This document shows positions 22,495 to 39,632 of a stretch of 42,944 bases of DNA, one piece after another. How positions within the stretch are numbered: position 1 is the stretch's first letter; each line of letters opens with the position of its first letter. Below the pieces are notes generated by a model. That model was given only the letters and a program-made list of their open reading frames with translations, searched no databases and had not been told where the DNA came from. The DNA comes from a virus, in IMG/VR virus record IMGVR_UViG_3300045118_000151, positions 1-42,944 of that record; one strand, 5' to 3'. The translations under genes were made by a program, and so were the position numbers.

Positions 22495-22664
22495 TCTATT
22501 AAACCCCTATATCTTTTTATAAATCTTTTTATTTTTTCAATATCATAAGGAAGCTTATTTCTTAACTGGGAGGCATAGGTAACTGCCAGATAGGCCTCGC
22601 TTCTGTTTAATAATCTGCTGTCTGCAAGACGTTCTAATAATTGAATTTCTTCTCTATTTTTCAT
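22491..22664 (-). CDS. Small basic helical protein
   Basis: 57 residues (MKNREEIQLLERLADSRLL...), helical and basic, ending KIKRFIKRYRGLIE. Both ends overlap neighbours (ATGA with the chaperonin stop; ATGA with the GT ATG). No family is recognised. A small-terminase or DNA-binding role is possible but unsupported. Confidence 0.6.
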   Translation of the reverse strand: MKNREEIQLLERLADSRLLNRSEAYLAVTYASQLRNKLPYDIEKIKRFIKRYRGLIE

Positions 22665-24076
22665 CCTGCATATATGTCATCTAATTTAAGTATTAAATTG
22701 GCCACTTCTGTAGAACTATTAATTGCGTGCATTTTTAGGCTTGCTAATTCAAATATCCCTCTCTCTCTCGCATCACTAATCACTTTAACAGCATCAACTC
22801 CCAAATCTTTTTTCCCAAGAGTATGCTGATTTTTCAATAAAGTGAGCACTTCCAACGCATTATGTCCGCAGTTTTCAGCTAAAATTAAGGGGATTGCTTC
22901 AATACTCTCTGCAAATTTCTCTATGGCTATTTGTTCAACTCCGCCTATCTTCTTGCTAAATTCCCTCAAATGGTTAGACAATTCAATTTCTATGGCTCCT
23001 GCGCCAACTACACTCTTTCCATAGTTTCTCATCACATTGACAACATCATCTATACTTCTTTCAATTTCATCGAGTATTTGTTTGGTTGGTGCATTAATGA
23101 CTAATGTCTTAATATCACTCTTTTCATTCAATATTTGGATTATTCCTGTTTGTCCTGAGTAAGAAATATCTCCAAATCCCAAATGGTCTTTAAATTCAAT
23201 AGTTGGATCCCCTATCACTCTTGCCTTTGTTGCCCTGCAAATGTTATCAAGTAGGTCTCTTTTATATACAACTATCGTCATCAAATTGGCTTCTGTCAAG
23301 TAGTTTTCAAATTGGGGGTTTGTATCAGATGTGAACACGCAACCCACATCTAATTCTTTTAACTTATCTACTATTTGTTTTTTAAAATCCCTCTGTCTTT
23401 GTTCAATTTTGTTTAATTCATCAGTAGATGTGACTTGAAATTTAGCCAACTCTAAATTAGATTGTAAATCGAGAACCGCTATGTCTCCAATAGTTGACTT
23501 GGGTGTTCTATCATTCAGCGTATGCCCTTCAAAAGTAAATCCTTTTATTAATTCAATTTTCTCTGAGGAATTATCAAATTTTGCAATTTTTAAATTAGTT
23601 ACATCCTCATTTTTCAGTAAATTAGTTAATTTTTCAGAAAGTTGATTGTTTAATTTGCTGCCAAATGTAGACCGAATTATCTTTTCTATGTCTACAGTTT
23701 CTCCAATCTGGCTTAAATATCTTAAACACTCAACTCTCGCCAAATTATATCCGCTCATTATAATGGTTGGATGAACTCTTTTATTTAATAAATCCAAAGA
23801 ATTAGTCAATAATTGTCCTGCCAAGATAACAGCTGTAGTGGTTCCATCGCCTATTACTCGTTCTTGGCTTTCTGCTAATCTTTTAAATATGTCTGCTATT
23901 GGATTAGTGAACTTAATTGACTTAATAATAGTTGCTCCGTCATTAGTCAATATAGTCTCATCTCCCTTAATAATCATCTTATTCATTCCCTTAATTCCTA
24001 ACGTAGACCTAACAGTATCAGAAATCTGAATTCCCAAGTTAATGTAGTCTATTTTATTCTTCTTGTCTTCTGTCAT
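22661..24076 (-). CDS. Group II chaperonin (thermosome-like)
   Basis: 471 residues. Equatorial ATP-binding motifs LTNDGATI (43-50) and GDGTTTAVILAG (76-87), the apical segment KGFTFEGH, ERSIDDVVNV with the catalytic Asp region, and VVGAGAIEIEL and AENCGHNALEVL near the C-terminus are all as in archaeal thermosomes. It is about 70 residues shorter than typical cellular subunits (about 540) yet keeps all three domains. It probably forms its own ring, or mixes with the host complex, to fold virion proteins. It sits at the start of the late operon. Confidence 0.93.
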   Translation of the reverse strand: MTEDKKNKIDYINLGIQISDTVRSTLGIKGMNKMIIKGDETILTNDGATIIKSIKFTNPIADIFKRLAESQERVIGDGTTTAVILAGQLLTNSLDLLNKRVHPTIIMSGYNLARVECLRYLSQIGETVDIEKIIRSTFGSKLNNQLSEKLTNLLKNEDVTNLKIAKFDNSSEKIELIKGFTFEGHTLNDRTPKSTIGDIAVLDLQSNLELAKFQVTSTDELNKIEQRQRDFKKQIVDKLKELDVGCVFTSDTNPQFENYLTEANLMTIVVYKRDLLDNICRATKARVIGDPTIEFKDHLGFGDISYSGQTGIIQILNEKSDIKTLVINAPTKQILDEIERSIDDVVNVMRNYGKSVVGAGAIEIELSNHLREFSKKIGGVEQIAIEKFAESIEAIPLILAENCGHNALEVLTLLKNQHTLGKKDLGVDAVKVISDARERGIFELASLKMHAINSSTEVANLILKLDDIYAG

Positions 24077-25984: not shown

Positions 25985-26140
25985 ATGGAAGTTAATCCAA
26001 TACAAAGAATAGCAACGCTTCACGAGTTAATCAATTTAACAGAAGGAAGTGGTTTGAGTTGTGAGCAGGAGCTTATTAAAAGCTGTAAGCAGGAGATTAA
26101 CTCTATTGTTGATAGTTTTACAAATGAAAGCAACGAATAG
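25985..26140 (+). CDS. Small acidic helical protein upstream of Ku
   Basis: 51 residues (MEVNPIQRIATLHELINLTE...), with a good Shine-Dalgarno (AAAGGGGG). Its last 5 codons overlap the Ku start at 26124, so the two are translationally coupled. Two Cys in the centre. No family recognised. Confidence 0.6.
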   Translation: MEVNPIQRIATLHELINLTEGSGLSCEQELIKSCKQEINSIVDSFTNESNE

Positions 26141-26864
26141 TGTGGATATTTTAATCGGAAATACAGAAATCCCTATTAACATTTATTCAGCTATTGAAAG
26201 CGAAACACACTTTAAACAGATTAGCGTCTGTTGTAATGCTTCTGTTAATTATAGGAAGATATGTTCAAATTGTGAGCAAATCCTTTCAAGCGAAGAAATC
26301 AAGAAGGCATTAGAAGTTGGAGATACTTTAAAGGAAATTGATGCTGGAAAAGTGAAAGTTGAAAATTCTTCTTTAAAGATACTTGGCTTAATTGATTTTG
26401 ATGTTGAGAATGGTGTTATTCCTAATGGAGATGTCTGGTTTATTGGCTTCAAGTCTGATAAAAGTAAGGACAAAGCAAGAAGAAATTTAATGAAGTTTTC
26501 TTATTTAAGGGAAACTCTAAAAGAAAGTGGAGTTAATCTTCTTGGCTTGGTTAATGTGCGAGGAAAAGAGCATATTGTAGTTTTGAAAAGCTATTTTAAT
26601 GCTTTAATCGGCTTGGGTGTCTATAATTTTAGTTCGGTTAGAGATGTTAGAGAAATCGGGGGATATAGCGAAGAATTTAGCTGTGTTCCTGAAACTCTTA
26701 ATCAAATGGTAGAGCAGATTAAACTAAAAGAGAAAGTAGCTATAAAATCTATTGAGAACACGAGAGAGAAACTAATTGAATTAGAAATGACTAAAAAAGA
26801 AATGGGCGACAAATTGGAATATGCTAAAAAAGAAGAAAATCCACTTGAAATAATATCTTTCTAA
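26124..26864 (+). CDS. ku: Ku-like DNA end-binding protein
   Basis: 246 residues from the ATG at 26124 (a frame-open start at 26061 would run through the previous gene). The prokaryotic Ku core is recognisable: IGNTEIPINIYSAIE (11-25; bacterial consensus FGLVNVPVKLYSATE), a Cys-rich SVCCNAS...YRKICSNCEQ (35-51), a conserved VGDTLKEID and LKILGLIDFDVEN segment (84-96), and LRETLKESGVNLLGLVNVRGKEHIVVL (128-154) matching the K-YaLLreaL...-AIar-vlRnrehLaaL core. The C-terminus is coiled coil. Homodimeric Ku rings bind broken ends and recruit LigD. The ligase lies three genes downstream, which fits a viral NHEJ pair. Confidence 0.82.
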   Translation: MKATNSVDILIGNTEIPINIYSAIESETHFKQISVCCNASVNYRKICSNCEQILSSEEIKKALEVGDTLKEIDAGKVKVENSSLKILGLIDFDVENGVIPNGDVWFIGFKSDKSKDKARRNLMKFSYLRETLKESGVNLLGLVNVRGKEHIVVLKSYFNALIGLGVYNFSSVRDVREIGGYSEEFSCVPETLNQMVEQIKLKEKVAIKSIENTREKLIELEMTKKEMGDKLEYAKKEENPLEIISF

Positions 26865-27223
26865 TGGGATACAACATTTATGATGAACTTAGTGAAATTA
26901 TAGAAGAAAAGGCAGAAGCAGATTTAGAAATAGCAAAGGAATTTGTTAGAGATGTTGAAATCTTTATGCGAAAGTGCCTTAATGAACAAGAAGAACAACA
27001 AGATTTGCCTATAATAACAGAATTAAGTAAAAAAGAGTGTAACATATTTAAAGAAACTTCTGGGGAAAAAGAGGAAGAAATAGAAATGTCTGATGAGGAA
27101 AGAAAAGAGTGTCTGGCTTCTGAGGTTTGTAGGTGTGGTGGAAAGATAGTAACAAACTCCTATGGTGAGTGTTCCTATTCTGTTGAGTGTAATAAATGTG
27201 GTTATCTATTTGATGAGGACTAA
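26864..27223 (+). CDS. Acidic zinc-ribbon protein
   Basis: 119 residues. N-terminal two-thirds acidic and helical; the C-terminus has C-R-C-GG and YSVECNKCGYLF (a Cys4 zinc ribbon). It starts one base after the Ku stop (overlapping TAATG), so it is probably a partner of Ku or an adaptor for DNA ends. Function unknown. Confidence 0.65.
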   Translation: MGYNIYDELSEIIEEKAEADLEIAKEFVRDVEIFMRKCLNEQEEQQDLPIITELSKKECNIFKETSGEKEEEIEMSDEERKECLASEVCRCGGKIVTNSYGECSYSVECNKCGYLFDED

Positions 27224-27381
27224 TGAAAGAACAGACAAATAATTTAATCGGTGTATTGCTGGGCTTAATTGTTTTTCTTTTCTTATTTAGGTTTAACCTA
27301 TGGTTTGCTATTCTTATGTTTTTTGTAGCTACGGGCTTATGGGTTACTATTAGTAAATCCATAGATAAATTAAACAAATAA
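27223..27381 (+). CDS. Small two-helix membrane protein
   Basis: 52 residues (MKEQTNNLIGVLLGLIVFLF...). Two hydrophobic helices (about 8-22 and 25-43) separated by RFN. Starts in TAATG with the previous gene. It ends just before the hammerhead ribozyme. Why a membrane protein sits in a DNA-repair operon is unclear. Confidence 0.6.
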   Translation: MKEQTNNLIGVLLGLIVFLFLFRFNLWFAILMFFVATGLWVTISKSIDKLNK

Positions 27382-27387
27382 TTTTTT

Positions 27388-27470
27388 ATTTTTTATTTGT
27401 CGGGTTGTGGGGTAGTGGCGAATTACTCCATAACTCCTGATGAGCCGAAGGGCGAAACAAAAAAGAAATG
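27388..27470 (+). ncRNA. Hammerhead ribozyme, type III
   Basis: All conserved core nucleotides are present. Cleavage triplet GTC (27399-27401). Stem I: 15 consecutive pairs, 27402-27416 with 27422-27436, closed by a 5-base loop. Core CTGATGA (27437-27443). Stem II GCC-GAAG-GGC with the conserved G10.1-C11.1 pair (27444-27453). GAAA (27454-27457). Stem III C27458-G27399 then an A/U helix (27459-27469 with 27388-27398, one mismatch), open at its ends. The unusual point is the long unbroken stem I, without an internal loop for tertiary contacts. The cut after C27401 separates the Ku side from the ligase/RuvB side of the transcript. Confidence 0.9.
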
Positions 27471-27611
27471 GAACAACAAAATAGTTTATTTGGAATAGAA
27501 ATTGAAAAACCTAAAATAGAAAATAGTAAGAAGCTAAAAGAACTCTTGACTAAGAAATATGGCTTTCCAATTAAAATTCAGGTGTTGAAAGATGAAGTTA
27601 AGTCTGTGTGA
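27468..27611 (+). CDS. Small protein between ribozyme and ligase
   Basis: 47 residues (MEQQNSLFGIEIEKP...). Its start codon lies in the 3' arm of the ribozyme stem III, so folding of the ribozyme may limit initiation. It overlaps the ligase start by 20 bases. The N-terminus (QQNSLFGI) faintly recalls a sliding-clamp binding motif; this is weak. Confidence 0.5.
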   Translation: MEQQNSLFGIEIEKPKIENSKKLKELLTKKYGFPIKIQVLKDEVKSV

Positions 27612-28374
27612 GAGTGGAACAGAAAAAGATATAGAGAAATATCATTTAAAGGGCTGGATAGCCCAACATAAAATAGATGGGTGTAGATGTTTAGCTGTTT
27701 GTTTAAACGGGCAAGTTAATCTACTTGGAAGAAGTGGAAGTGATTACACAAGAAAGTTTAATGAAGTTGTTGAAGAACTTAAATCCTTTAATGGAATTTT
27801 TGACGGGGAGATAGTCTGTGATACTTTTGAGCATACTCAAAGTAGAGTTCATACTGAAAATAGTTTAAAATTAAAGTTGCTTGAAAAGGAATATCCTGCT
27901 ATATTTTATGTATTTGATGTGCTTTCTTATGAAAATAGGGATTTAAGATGTGAAATGCTTTCTAAAAGGTTGAAAATCCTTGCGGAAATGCCTTTAAAAT
28001 CGCTTAAATCGGTTAAGATGCTGGATTACACCCCCGATTTAATAAATTGCTGGGAAAGGGCGAAAGAATTGAAATGGGAAGGAATTATCATTAAACGACT
28101 TAATAGCAAATATGCTGGAAAAAGAACTTATGATTGGCTTAAAATCAAATTGACTAAAAGTAAGGATATTCTGGTTAAATCTTATGAAGTTAATCCAGCA
28201 GGAATAAGAGTTGAAGATGAAAATGGAATAGCTGTTCAGATTACAGGAAGTCAGAATATTTCAGTTAAAAAAGAGTTAGATGAAAGAGGTGAGTGCTTAA
28301 TTGAGGTTAATTATCTGAATGAAACAGATAATGGAAAACTAAGACAGCCAACATTTAAATGCAAAAAAGAGTAA
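27592..28374 (+). CDS. lig: ATP-dependent DNA ligase, compact LigD-like
   Basis: 260 residues: an adenylation domain with motif I HKIDGCR (Lys27), motif III FDGEIV (70-75), IIIa FDVLSYENRDLR, motif IV EGIIIKR (163-169), motif V DWLKIKL (181-187), followed by an OB domain ending KLRQPTFK (motif VI-like). It lacks the N-terminal DNA-binding domain of replicative archaeal ligases (about 550-600 residues), and is like the ligase domain of bacterial LigD/LigC. It probably seals nicks or ends held by Ku. It overlaps the RuvB-like gene by 16 bases. Confidence 0.88.
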   Translation: MKLSLCESGTEKDIEKYHLKGWIAQHKIDGCRCLAVCLNGQVNLLGRSGSDYTRKFNEVVEELKSFNGIFDGEIVCDTFEHTQSRVHTENSLKLKLLEKEYPAIFYVFDVLSYENRDLRCEMLSKRLKILAEMPLKSLKSVKMLDYTPDLINCWERAKELKWEGIIIKRLNSKYAGKRTYDWLKIKLTKSKDILVKSYEVNPAGIRVEDENGIAVQITGSQNISVKKELDERGECLIEVNYLNETDNGKLRQPTFKCKKE

Positions 28375-28892
28375 TTGATAAAGTTGATAGGCTATGGAAA
28401 AACGGAGAACTAATAGCAATTAAAACTTATTCTCATATTGAGAATGAGGAGAAAGATTGTTTAAAAGGCGAAATGCTTGATGCTCCTAAGTTTGAGGAAT
28501 TAGTTTATACTGAAAAGCAGGAAGAATTTATGAAGTTAGTTTTAAAGAAACTAAAAGAAGAAAAGCTGCATTTATTGTTTGCAGGCCCAGCAGGAACAGG
28601 AAAGACATATTGTATGCCAAAAGGAACTTTAATCAAGACGCCAAATGGAATAAAACCTATTGAAGATGTAGAGGAGGTTTTAAGTTACAATTTTAAGAAA
28701 AAGAAGATAGAACCAAAAAAAGCAATAATTATTCCTTCTGGAAAAAAAAGAGTTTTTTATATTCATACTAAAAAAGGAATAATGAAATGTAGCCCAGAAC
28801 ATAGATGGTTTGTAATTAGAGATAATAAAAGACAGATTATAGAAACAAAAGATTTAAAAACAAGCGACTATTTATTATATATCAAATGTTAG
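28359..28892 (+). CDS. RuvB-like helicase, N-terminal part + split intein N-half
   Basis: 177 residues. The first 84 belong to the ATPase (N-extein) and end in Walker A GPAGTGKTY (76-84). Cys85 starts the N-intein (CMPKGTLIKTPNGIKPI, block A; MKCSPEHRWF, block B), which runs 93 residues to the stop. The stop overlaps the HNH ATG (ATGTTAG). The protein cannot be an ATPase alone; it must trans-splice with the product of the 29311 gene to restore GPAGTGKTY-SAKMLACEL. Confidence 0.87.
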   Translation: MQKRVIDKVDRLWKNGELIAIKTYSHIENEEKDCLKGEMLDAPKFEELVYTEKQEEFMKLVLKKLKEEKLHLLFAGPAGTGKTYCMPKGTLIKTPNGIKPIEDVEEVLSYNFKKKKIEPKKAIIIPSGKKRVFYIHTKKGIMKCSPEHRWFVIRDNKRQIIETKDLKTSDYLLYIKC

Positions 28893-29430
28893 CAAGAAAT
28901 CCAAAATCAAAAAAAGGAAATAGAAAGAATTATTTAGAAATAGCCAAAAAAAACTTTAATTGGAAATGTATGAACTGCGGGAAAAAAAGAACAAATACCG
29001 CCTTTGATTTAATTGTCCATCATAAAGATAAAAATCCATTTAATAATTCTATTAATAATCTTTTAATTTTGTGCCAAAATTGCCATTTAAAGGAACATAA
29101 AAAAGATTTGGCAGATAGAACCCAAATAAGCAAAATTATGAAAGAAAAATGGGAAAATTATCGTGAAAGTAAAAAGAAATTTTGCCCTATTTGTAAAAGA
29201 GAATTTTATGCCATTAAAGGAAAGAAAATTTATTGCTCTCAAAAATGTTGGCTAAATTGTTATAATTCAAATAGAGACTTAAATCCATTATATAAAAAAG
29301 GAAGAAAACCATGGAACAAAGGATTAAAATTGAAAAAATAAGAGAAACAATAGAAGAAAAAAACATGTATGATTTATCTGTTGAAGATAATGAGAACTTC
29401 ATCTTGGCAAATGGAATTATCACTCATAAT
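28611..29430 (+). mobile_element. Fractured (split) intein with free-standing HNH gene
   Basis: N-intein 28611-28889 (93 residues), separate HNH gene 28886-29341 in another frame, C-intein 29311-29430 (40 residues, with block F MYDLSVEDNENFILANG and terminal ITHN, +1 Ser). The insertion point is the P-loop of the ATPase. This is the known fractured-gene layout (a split intein around a homing endonuclease gene), here in a RuvB-like gene. Confidence 0.88.
28886..29341 (+). CDS. HNH homing endonuclease within the fractured intein
   Basis: 151 residues. HNH motif FDLIVHHKDKNPFNNSINNL followed by LCQNCHLKEHK; N-terminal zinc CMNCGKKR; C-terminal second zinc module (FCPICKRE...YCSQKCW) and a NUMOD3-like end (KPWNKGLK). 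It starts inside the stop region of the N-intein gene and overlaps the C-intein gene by 31 bases. It should cut intein-less RuvB-like genes and spread the element. Confidence 0.85.
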   Translation: MLARNPKSKKGNRKNYLEIAKKNFNWKCMNCGKKRTNTAFDLIVHHKDKNPFNNSINNLLILCQNCHLKEHKKDLADRTQISKIMKEKWENYRESKKKFCPICKREFYAIKGKKIYCSQKCWLNCYNSNRDLNPLYKKGRKPWNKGLKLKK

Positions 29431-30390
29431 TCAGCTAAGATGTTGGCTTGTGAGTTGAAAAAACCTTTTATTTATCTCAACGGACAGATGAGCCAGAAGA
29501 AAATAGCTGAAACCATTTTAAATGCCGAAAAAAATTCAATTATTTTGATAGATGAAATTCATAATCTTCCAGAAAGAGTAAGTGAAACAATATATCCAGC
29601 TATTGAGTATAATGAGATTAGTCGAGGAAGTCAGGCAGTTAAATTGACTAATGATTTAATTTTTATTGGAACAACAACAGAACCAGAAAAGTTGCCTAAG
29701 CCTTTGCTTGATAGACTTTTTAGAGTTGAGTTTGATGAACCCGATGAGTTAATGGCTAAGAAAATACTTTTAAAAATGCAGATAAGTGAAGAAGTAGCCG
29801 ATAAGTTGCTTAATCATACTCTTAATATTAGAATTTTGAAAAAGTTTGTTAAGTTAATTGGAATGTATGGTGGTGGAATGAATGGATTAGTTAAATTATT
29901 CAGGTTAATGAAGATAAATCTCTATTCAGGACTTAGTGATATTCAAGATAATTATATCAATTACTTGAGAAGAATAGGAAAGCCAGTGAGTTTGAGAAGT
30001 TTGAGTTTAGTCTTGCGACTTAGTGAGGAAAGAATAAAATATGAGATAGAAAGTGAATTAATTAGAAAAGGTTTAATCACAATAACCAGCAAGGGCAGGG
30101 AGTTAAATCCAGAACTAAGTGATTATACTTATGAAGATTTAAATAAGGCAAAAGAAAAGGTTGATGAAGCTCCTAAATTTCATCAGGATAGTCGTGAAAC
30201 AGCAAGGATTTATTTAAAAGAACATCCCGAAATAAGAGAAAAGTTTGGAAAGAAAATCTTTGAACTAATAAACTTTATGAGTGAAAAGATTGAGAACGGG
30301 ATAGAGTGTGACCTCATCGATTTTAATAGTTTCGGTGCAGATAAACCTATTAAAGATAGCTTTACAGACAATTATCTTGAAGAATTATAA
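29311..30390 (+). CDS. RuvB-like helicase, C-terminal part preceded by split intein C-half
   Basis: 359 residues. Residues 1-40 are the C-intein, ending in ITHN; Ser41 is the +1 extein residue. Then the AAA+ core: Walker B IILIDEIHNLPERVSETIYP, sensor 1 FIGTTTEPEKLP and the Arg finger LLDRLFRVEF, and a C-terminal winged helix (RSLSLVLRLSEERIKYEIES, KGLITITSKGREL) like that of RuvB. Spliced length about 403. RuvB is normally bacterial; in this archaeal virus it may drive branch migration during recombination or end processing. No RuvA-like gene seen. Confidence 0.85.
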   Translation: MEQRIKIEKIRETIEEKNMYDLSVEDNENFILANGIITHNSAKMLACELKKPFIYLNGQMSQKKIAETILNAEKNSIILIDEIHNLPERVSETIYPAIEYNEISRGSQAVKLTNDLIFIGTTTEPEKLPKPLLDRLFRVEFDEPDELMAKKILLKMQISEEVADKLLNHTLNIRILKKFVKLIGMYGGGMNGLVKLFRLMKINLYSGLSDIQDNYINYLRRIGKPVSLRSLSLVLRLSEERIKYEIESELIRKGLITITSKGRELNPELSDYTYEDLNKAKEKVDEAPKFHQDSRETARIYLKEHPEIREKFGKKIFELINFMSEKIENGIECDLIDFNSFGADKPIKDSFTDNYLEEL

Positions 30391-38552: not shown

Positions 38553-38871
38553 TTTTCAACGTATCGTTCCATTTTTGATGTATTACTGCTTGTATTCTAT
38601 CATAACTAAATTCAATCTTACACTTTCCTCTCGGATATAAATTATTTAATTTTTTAACCAATTCATATGCATCATTAATTCCCTCGCTTCTCACTGCCTT
38701 ACACATTATTCTCAGCGAATTAGAATATTCTTCAGCCGATTGACATTTAGTTCTTAATTGAAAGAACTCACTCTCTTGAACAGCATATTCAAATAAATAT
38801 TCAAGAAATCTGTCTATATTTTCTTCTCCGTAATATTTTCTTAACTCTCTTTCTTTTTCTTGAATATTCAT
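38506..38871 (-). CDS. Helical protein of unknown function
   Basis: 121 residues, acidic to neutral helices (RELRKYYGEENIDRFLEYLF), with a C-terminal basic part. Four-base overlap with the phosphoesterase gene, so probably a partner of it. Confidence 0.55.
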   Translation of the reverse strand: MNIQEKERELRKYYGEENIDRFLEYLFEYAVQESEFFQLRTKCQSAEEYSNSLRIMCKAVRSEGINDAYELVKKLNNLYPRGKCKIEFSYDRIQAVIHQKWNDTLKNERRNQMHQSGLCEE

Positions 38872-39632
38872 AATACAAATTGAAAAGCCTGAGGTTTAAT
38901 TTTTTTTAATGCTCTATGTCTGTCTAAATTTAATTCAACAATCCAGCCACCTCTTACTGGCTGAATTCCTTTTCTTTTCAAGTAATCGTTCTGTTTCTGA
39001 AATGCCCCACACATAAATAAATGTATATTTCGATAAACCATATACATCATCCTATGTAAATGCCCGAATAAAAGAATATCTGGTTTCTGGCCACCTTCTA
39101 ATTCATTTATATATTTTTGAGGCGAATAACTAATTGCATAAGCAAAACCATAATCAGGATGAGCCAAGTCTATATTCACATTATTCCATTTAACTCTTGC
39201 ATAATATCTACCCAAATAAATTATATCTTTCCTTCCTTCAAAATCCTGTTTTTCGCTTCCATCTTTAGGGATTGCTCCGCCGTGAACAATTAAATTGCCT
39301 ACATCTATTCCGCTTCTTCTATAAGCTTTTAAATCGTGATTTCCTGTTATGACCATAGTTTCAATCCCTTCAATCTTTGGATAATTTCTGTTAAAATATT
39401 CTGCCTGTCTTTCTGTGCCGATTACTTTTAAATCATTCTCCTGCCCCATATAGACACCATTTCCGTCAGTTAAATCTCCTGAATGAAAAACTCTGGTTAT
39501 CCCTTCTCTTTTAAAAATATCATACATTTCGTGCAAATGCTCCAAATCCTCACTTTCTGTTCCCAAATGAGTATCACTCACAATACCAAACCTTATTACT
39601 CTATCAGGTGTTTGTATTCTTTTGTGTATCAT
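38868..39632 (-). CDS. Calcineurin-like metallophosphoesterase
   Basis: 254 residues. Complete metal-binding set: VSDTHLG (18-24), HSGDLTDG (50-57), TGNHD (96-100), DLAHPDYG (155-162) and GHLH (190-193). Family members include Mre11-type nucleases and phosphatases; the absence of a capping domain speaks for a plain phosphoesterase or simple nuclease. In a virus with Ku, ligase and RuvB-like genes, DNA end processing is an attractive but unproven role. Leaderless promoter with an operator-like repeat. Confidence 0.85.
   Translation of the reverse strand: MIHKRIQTPDRVIRFGIVSDTHLGTESEDLEHLHEMYDIFKREGITRVFHSGDLTDGNGVYMGQENDLKVIGTERQAEYFNRNYPKIEGIETMVITGNHDLKAYRRSGIDVGNLIVHGGAIPKDGSEKQDFEGRKDIIYLGRYYARVKWNNVNIDLAHPDYGFAYAISYSPQKYINELEGGQKPDILLFGHLHRMMYMVYRNIHLFMCGAFQKQNDYLKRKGIQPVRGGWIVELNLDRHRALKKIKPQAFQFVL

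Follow-up and report, generated by a model that had tools for sequence, protein, structure and literature searches.

What might a predicted self-cleaving RNA do in the middle of a viral gene row, where it separates a Ku gene from the genes for a DNA ligase and a RuvB-like protein? This question is raised by a 42.9-kb IMG/VR record (42,944 nucleotides, analysed over its whole length and referred to below as the window), which carries the capsid, portal and terminase genes of a tailed virus. The initial annotation of this DNA had described a canonical type III hammerhead ribozyme inside an archaeal virus operon, so both the nature of the virus and the nature of the element are considered here before a function is proposed.

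The window virus probably infects archaea, as had been suggested. An archaeal host is supported by the presence on the contig of genes for a thermosome-like group II chaperonin (470 aa; 22661-24076, minus strand) and for a phosphoesterase that is closest to the archaeal PolD small subunit (DP1-like; 38868-39632, minus strand), each of which scores below its NCBIfam cut-off. No tRNA genes were found in the window. The chaperonin, used to scan genomes, matched one Nitrososphaerota MAG at 28% identity; a capsid protein search of 398 genomes of this one archaeal phylum gave 0 matches. When 300 Nitrososphaerota genomes were searched with a hammerhead model (R1), there was one weak match (28.6 bits), at a locus that is without a hammerhead core in a forward-strand scan.

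The ribozyme is part of a plus-strand row that contains, in order, a 51-aa ORF, Ku, a 119-aa ORF, a 52-aa hydrophobic ORF, the ribozyme itself, a 47-aa ORF, the ligase and the RuvB-like gene. The genes on its two sides are as follows.

26124-26864, plus strand: Ku gene, its start set by alignment to Ku of the related contig G001 (PF02735, E 1e-12; 56% identity to G001)
26864-27223, plus strand: 119-aa ORF with a CxCG motif, no family
27223-27381, plus strand: 52-aa hydrophobic ORF, directly upstream of the ribozyme
27468-27611, plus strand: 47-aa ORF with its AUG within stem III of the ribozyme, a shortened homologue of a 165-aa gene of G001
27592-28374, plus strand: ATP-dependent DNA ligase, nearest to NHEJ ligases (PF01068, E 5e-24; TIGR02779, E 2e-35, below its cut-off)
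28359-30390, plus strand: RuvB-like gene, intein-interrupted, in three overlapping ORFs with HNH in the middle one (uninterrupted in G001)

Adjacent genes of this row abut or overlap, and the ribozyme fills an 86-nt gap (27382-27467) between them, which agrees with the position between Ku-side and ligase/RuvB-side genes that had been claimed for it. Two other features of the row can be recorded. A Ku gene and a gene for an NHEJ-like ATP-dependent ligase share one gene row (26124-28374, plus strand) in a probable archaeal virus, and likewise in G001. The intein lies in the P-loop of the RuvB-like protein, and the three ORFs encode the N-extein with the N part of the intein, an HNH endonuclease, and the C part of the intein with the C-extein, an arrangement suggestive of a split intein whose HNH gene stands apart.

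The hammerhead consensus comprises CUGANGA, GAAA, an NUH cleavage triplet and the A15.1-U16.1 pair. Judged by sequence and fold, positions 27384-27473 (plus strand) form a complete type III hammerhead ribozyme for which self-cleavage is predicted, confirming the original observation. Its parts, together with the U-tract that it overlaps, are listed below.

27382-27394, plus strand: U-tract TTTTTTATTTTTT, which supplies the 5' strand of distal stem III and is probably an archaeal terminator (sequence)
27384-27400, plus strand: 5' strand of stem III, up to U16.1 (MFE fold)
27399-27401, plus strand: GUC, with the predicted cut after C17, which is C27401 (sequence and hammerhead consensus)
27402-27436, plus strand: stem I of 15 bp, in which 27402-27416 pairs to 27422-27436 around the loop GGCGA at 27417-27421 (sequence, fold)
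27437-27443, plus strand: core CUGAUGA (sequence)
27444-27453, plus strand: stem II, 3 bp GCC/GGC, loop GAAG (sequence, fold)
27454-27457, plus strand: core GAAA, with A15.1 at 27457 (sequence)
27457-27473, plus strand: 3' strand of stem III, A-rich, holding the AUG at 27468-27470 (MFE fold)

Inspection of the sequence found all core positions intact, including CUGAUGA, GAAA, GUC and A27457-U27400 as the A15.1-U16.1 pair, and the pair G16.2-C15.2 is formed by 27399 and 27458. Stems I and II are closed by loops (GGCGA and GAAG) and the open ends lie in stem III, as in the type III permutation. Folding of 27380-27480 gives precisely this hammerhead as the MFE structure (-32.8 kcal/mol, z -4.7, a value equalled by 0 of 200 shuffles), and in sequence and fold alike the core elements, the 15-bp stem I (15 of 15 pairs, uninterrupted, four of them G-U) and the 3-bp stem II are where the initial annotation had placed them. 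Its description of the ribozyme as canonical holds for the core but not for the stems around it, since no loop interrupts stem I close to the core and stem II is closed by GAAG instead of a GNRA loop. Similarly, stem III is present and open as described, but in the MFE fold its supposed 11-12 bp are 5 pairs, an A-A mismatch and 11 pairs (27384-27400 with 27457-27473), nearly all of them A-U or G-U; the distal part, in which the AUG of the next gene (27468) sits, is low-complexity U/A pairing.

A tertiary contact between stems I and II is common among hammerheads and speeds cleavage, and it is not universal. In the window, stem I is without a loop or bulge across its first 15 bp, and inspection revealed no convincing partner for a contact between stem I and stem II. 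Given the role of this loop contact in the hammerhead cleavage rate (PMC6155905), the window ribozyme may cleave slowly, because its stem I offers no core-near loop for the contact. Above 50 C, the fold model leaves the stem III pairs at the core largely unformed. Self-cleavage of the element is nevertheless judged very probable. As a separate candidate, an intrinsic terminator on the minus strand was ruled out by reading, as the hairpin there has no U-run after it.

The window hammerhead is far beyond what chance produces. The window has a single copy of the pattern CTGATGAG-N-CGAAAC, which is present in 0 of 100 shuffles, and 2.8e9 simulated strand-bases yielded 215 matches to a loose type III descriptor, with 0 of these having a stem I of at least 12 bp. 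A covariance model trained on 23 viral type III hammerheads from IMG/VR contigs, with the window sequence left out, matched the element at 31.6 bits (E 1.6e-6 in a search of 98.7 kb, comprising the window and its relatives); the score was the same with the search filters off, and the window contained no second match. The strong covariation among the 23 model sequences is partly built in, because they were chosen by pattern and pairing. The Rfam covariance search that had been proposed as a check gave a different result from this independent viral model: Rfam, including Hammerhead_3 (RF00008), reported no hammerhead in the region in gathering or permissive mode, even at E 10. This silence is weak evidence, because Rfam also misses clear hammerheads in phage contigs.

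A relative with the same gene row provides a view of the junction in another genome. A capsid protein search yielded two related contigs, one of which was recovered by Ku and ligase alignments; single-protein searches of IMG/VR with ligase, RuvB and terminase, and megablast against phage records, returned no relatives. The nearest relative, G001 (39.4 kb), shares this gene row, at identities of 56% for Ku, 58% for ligase and 53% for RuvB. At the junction, its gene encodes 165 aa and starts MGQETLFGIEIEK, and the window counterpart starts MEQQNSLFGIEIEK; the matching LFGIEIEK stretch at the beginning of the G001 homologue indicates that the start codon at 27468 is real, and thereby backs the earlier claim that the next start codon lies within stem III. 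This gene, which follows the ribozyme in the window, encodes 47 aa there (27468-27611) and 165 aa in G001 (L181, 3893-4390, minus strand), with both ends conserved; the window gene lacks an internal part of the G001 gene, as the result of an internal deletion or insertion. Close to its beginning, the G001 ligase frame splits into two frames that overlap (L181, 3100-3848, minus strand), which reflects a frameshift or an assembly error.

The conservation that the initial annotation implied was not borne out, as the element is absent from the orthologous junction of G001: there is no hammerhead and no hairpin there, and TTTTTTTTCTTTTTTTTTAAA stands directly before the ATG (a U-tract, then AAAATG). 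Because G001, the sole relative with this junction, is without the element, there are no compensatory changes to count, and its absence there also indicates that the operon works without a ribozyme. The U-tract is common to both junctions and the ribozyme is found in the window only, a pattern that in two genomes fits gain and loss alike.

In the window, the U-tract (27382-27394) is a coding-strand oligo-T run directly after the TAA of the 52-aa ORF, and G001 has U-tracts at the ribozyme-equivalent junction and at two other junctions of the same gene row. U-tracts act as archaeal terminators, and internal termination is frequent in the operons of one methanogen (PMC8716108, PMC10450193).

Type III hammerheads for comparison were gathered from IMG/VR contigs by pattern. 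Among the matches listed, hammerheads are plentiful in these contigs, as type I and type III, and of the 40 type III hammerheads from other viral contigs, 31 have an ATG at most 36 nt downstream. The long stem I that had been called atypical is so by this comparison, with 15 bp in the window and 5-8 bp in the 40 other type III candidates among the matches listed. In several contigs (L086, L112, L138, L139, L151 and G401, which contains L068), hammerheads stand in rows between genes over a few kilobases and are of type I or mixed with type III. Among the matches listed, the T fraction of the 30 nt before the cut is 0.45-0.69 in the window and L068 only, and 0.07-0.31 elsewhere. G401 is a 68-kb contig that encodes replication factor C subunits of archaeal type and a family B polymerase (PolB), and the half of it that was compared has no protein matches to the window. 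It contains five covariance-model matches, each before a gene, with a U-tract immediately in front of four; one element is weak (23.7 bits) and another has an irregular core. The arrangement is thus seen in a second archaeal-type contig.

The reading of the locus that we lean towards is that a cis-acting, self-cleaving type III hammerhead serves as an mRNA-processing element at the Ku / ligase-RuvB boundary and is coupled to a U-tract terminator; for the terminator-coupled role taken by itself, we put the chances at about even. Here, we infer the cleavage, the termination and any effect on translation or stability. RNA polymerase would stop at the U-tract in some rounds and read through in others, so that only read-through transcripts would contain the whole ribozyme. 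In the folded ribozyme, pairing of the U-tract with the A-rich leader (stem III) would hide the next AUG. The cut after C27401 would then leave a Ku mRNA whose U-rich end bears a 2',3'-cyclic phosphate, and a ligase-RuvB mRNA with a 5' end of its own, a 5'-hydroxyl at a stable 15-bp hairpin. After the cut, the weak A-U stem III would fall apart and free the AUG of the ligase-RuvB leader. At 37 C, the AUG region has a computed openness of 0.11-0.19 in the uncut RNA and of 0.39-0.43 once the RNA is cleaved, with values that vary with the flanking RNA folded, so the predicted effect of cleavage on AUG openness is modest.

It is possible, though doubtful, that this arrangement is general, in that archaeal tailed viruses use a recurring composite in which a U-tract terminator is joined to a type III hammerhead, with the U-tract and the leader of the next gene as stem III. 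Transcripts that escape termination would be cut there and their start codon released, and the two activities would jointly set the ratio of upstream to downstream expression.

Other explanations of the same locus have to be weighed against a processing role. The ribozyme could cleave and still be a recently acquired or selfish element, like those in many viral intergenic gaps, that has no regulatory role here and is tolerated because a cut at this place does little harm. Its absence from the orthologous G001 junction fits such an origin, as does the fact that hammerheads of viral contigs are very frequent and clustered among the matches listed; however, the single copy in the window gives no sign of spread, and an element of this kind would not be expected to show the precise placement between U-tract and start codon that is repeated in the unrelated contig G401, so we regard this explanation as rather unlikely. 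Alternatively, the work could be done by the U-tract as terminator and by the 15-bp hairpin as a protective 5' hairpin or a host-nuclease processing site, with a hammerhead core that is inactive or decaying as stem I overgrew the loop contact. The missing loop contact, the 15-bp stem I (against 5-8 bp in 40 others among the matches listed) and the U-tract common to the window and G001 could all be read in this way. Decay, however, would not keep every core position intact, and G001 is without a hairpin at the junction, which makes an inactive core quite improbable.

That a hairpin and short motifs merely happen to fit the hammerhead consensus would be easier to accept given the low complexity of distal stem III and given L161, a probable chance match that scores nearly as high with the same covariance model (29.5 bits). 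L161, however, came from millions of contigs and the window did not, and neither the E value of about 1e-6, nor the 0 simulated matches with a stem I of at least 12 bp in 2.8e9 strand-bases, nor the exact fit of the element into the intergenic gap is what coincidence would produce; such a resemblance is extremely improbable.

The locus offers a clean test of hammerhead function in bacterial and archaeal viruses, in that G001 combines this operon and a U-tract with no ribozyme and the unrelated G401, with its archaeal-type replication genes, repeats the order of U-tract, ribozyme and gene start. It would likewise test if a natural hammerhead can be active when the usual loop contact is missing.

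Several known systems can be compared with the window element. The lack of precedent implied by the initial annotation does not hold, since the haloviruses HF1 and HF2 have a published hammerhead (HHphage) before a replication gene, just upstream of the helicase gene, and a transcript 5' end within three nucleotides of the hammerhead cut (PMC3088659). Bacterial hammerheads of all three types are also known, many of them in prophages, and bacterial and prophage type III hammerheads have already been reported (PMC3088659, PMC6155905). With the HF1/HF2 element already published, a hammerhead in an archaeal virus is not unprecedented. Like the window element, HHphage lies on the coding strand of a tailed archaeal virus and fills the gap before a gene of DNA metabolism, the helicase. 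It is annotated as type II (NC_003345, 10292-10359, in HF2), in contrast to type III in the window, and, unlike the window element, it has a short core insertion and no U-tract stem III; in addition, HHphage precedes the first gene of a major transcript, whereas the window element is in the middle of a gene row.

Type III hammerheads of IMG/VR tailed viruses share the permutation, the core and an intergenic position shortly upstream of a start codon. Among the matches listed, they differ in having a stem I of 5-8 bp rather than 15 bp, most often of 7 bp and closed by a TGTG-like loop, and a stem II that is usually 4 bp with GAAA rather than 3 bp with GAAG. Rfam Hammerhead_3 (RF00008) likewise has the permutation and core found in the window, although the model itself gives no match at E 10. 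The U-tract type III hammerheads of G401 (L068), on a contig with archaeal-type virus genes, resemble the window element in the U-tract directly before GTC, the A-rich 3' strand of stem III and the gene start that comes next, and differ in a 7-bp stem I with a loop and a Shine-Dalgarno-like motif before the gene. By an open-access literature search, this recurring coupling of U-tract and hammerhead may be new, and the window hammerhead is unusual for its long stem I, for the U-tract that forms part of stem III and for a start codon enclosed in that stem.
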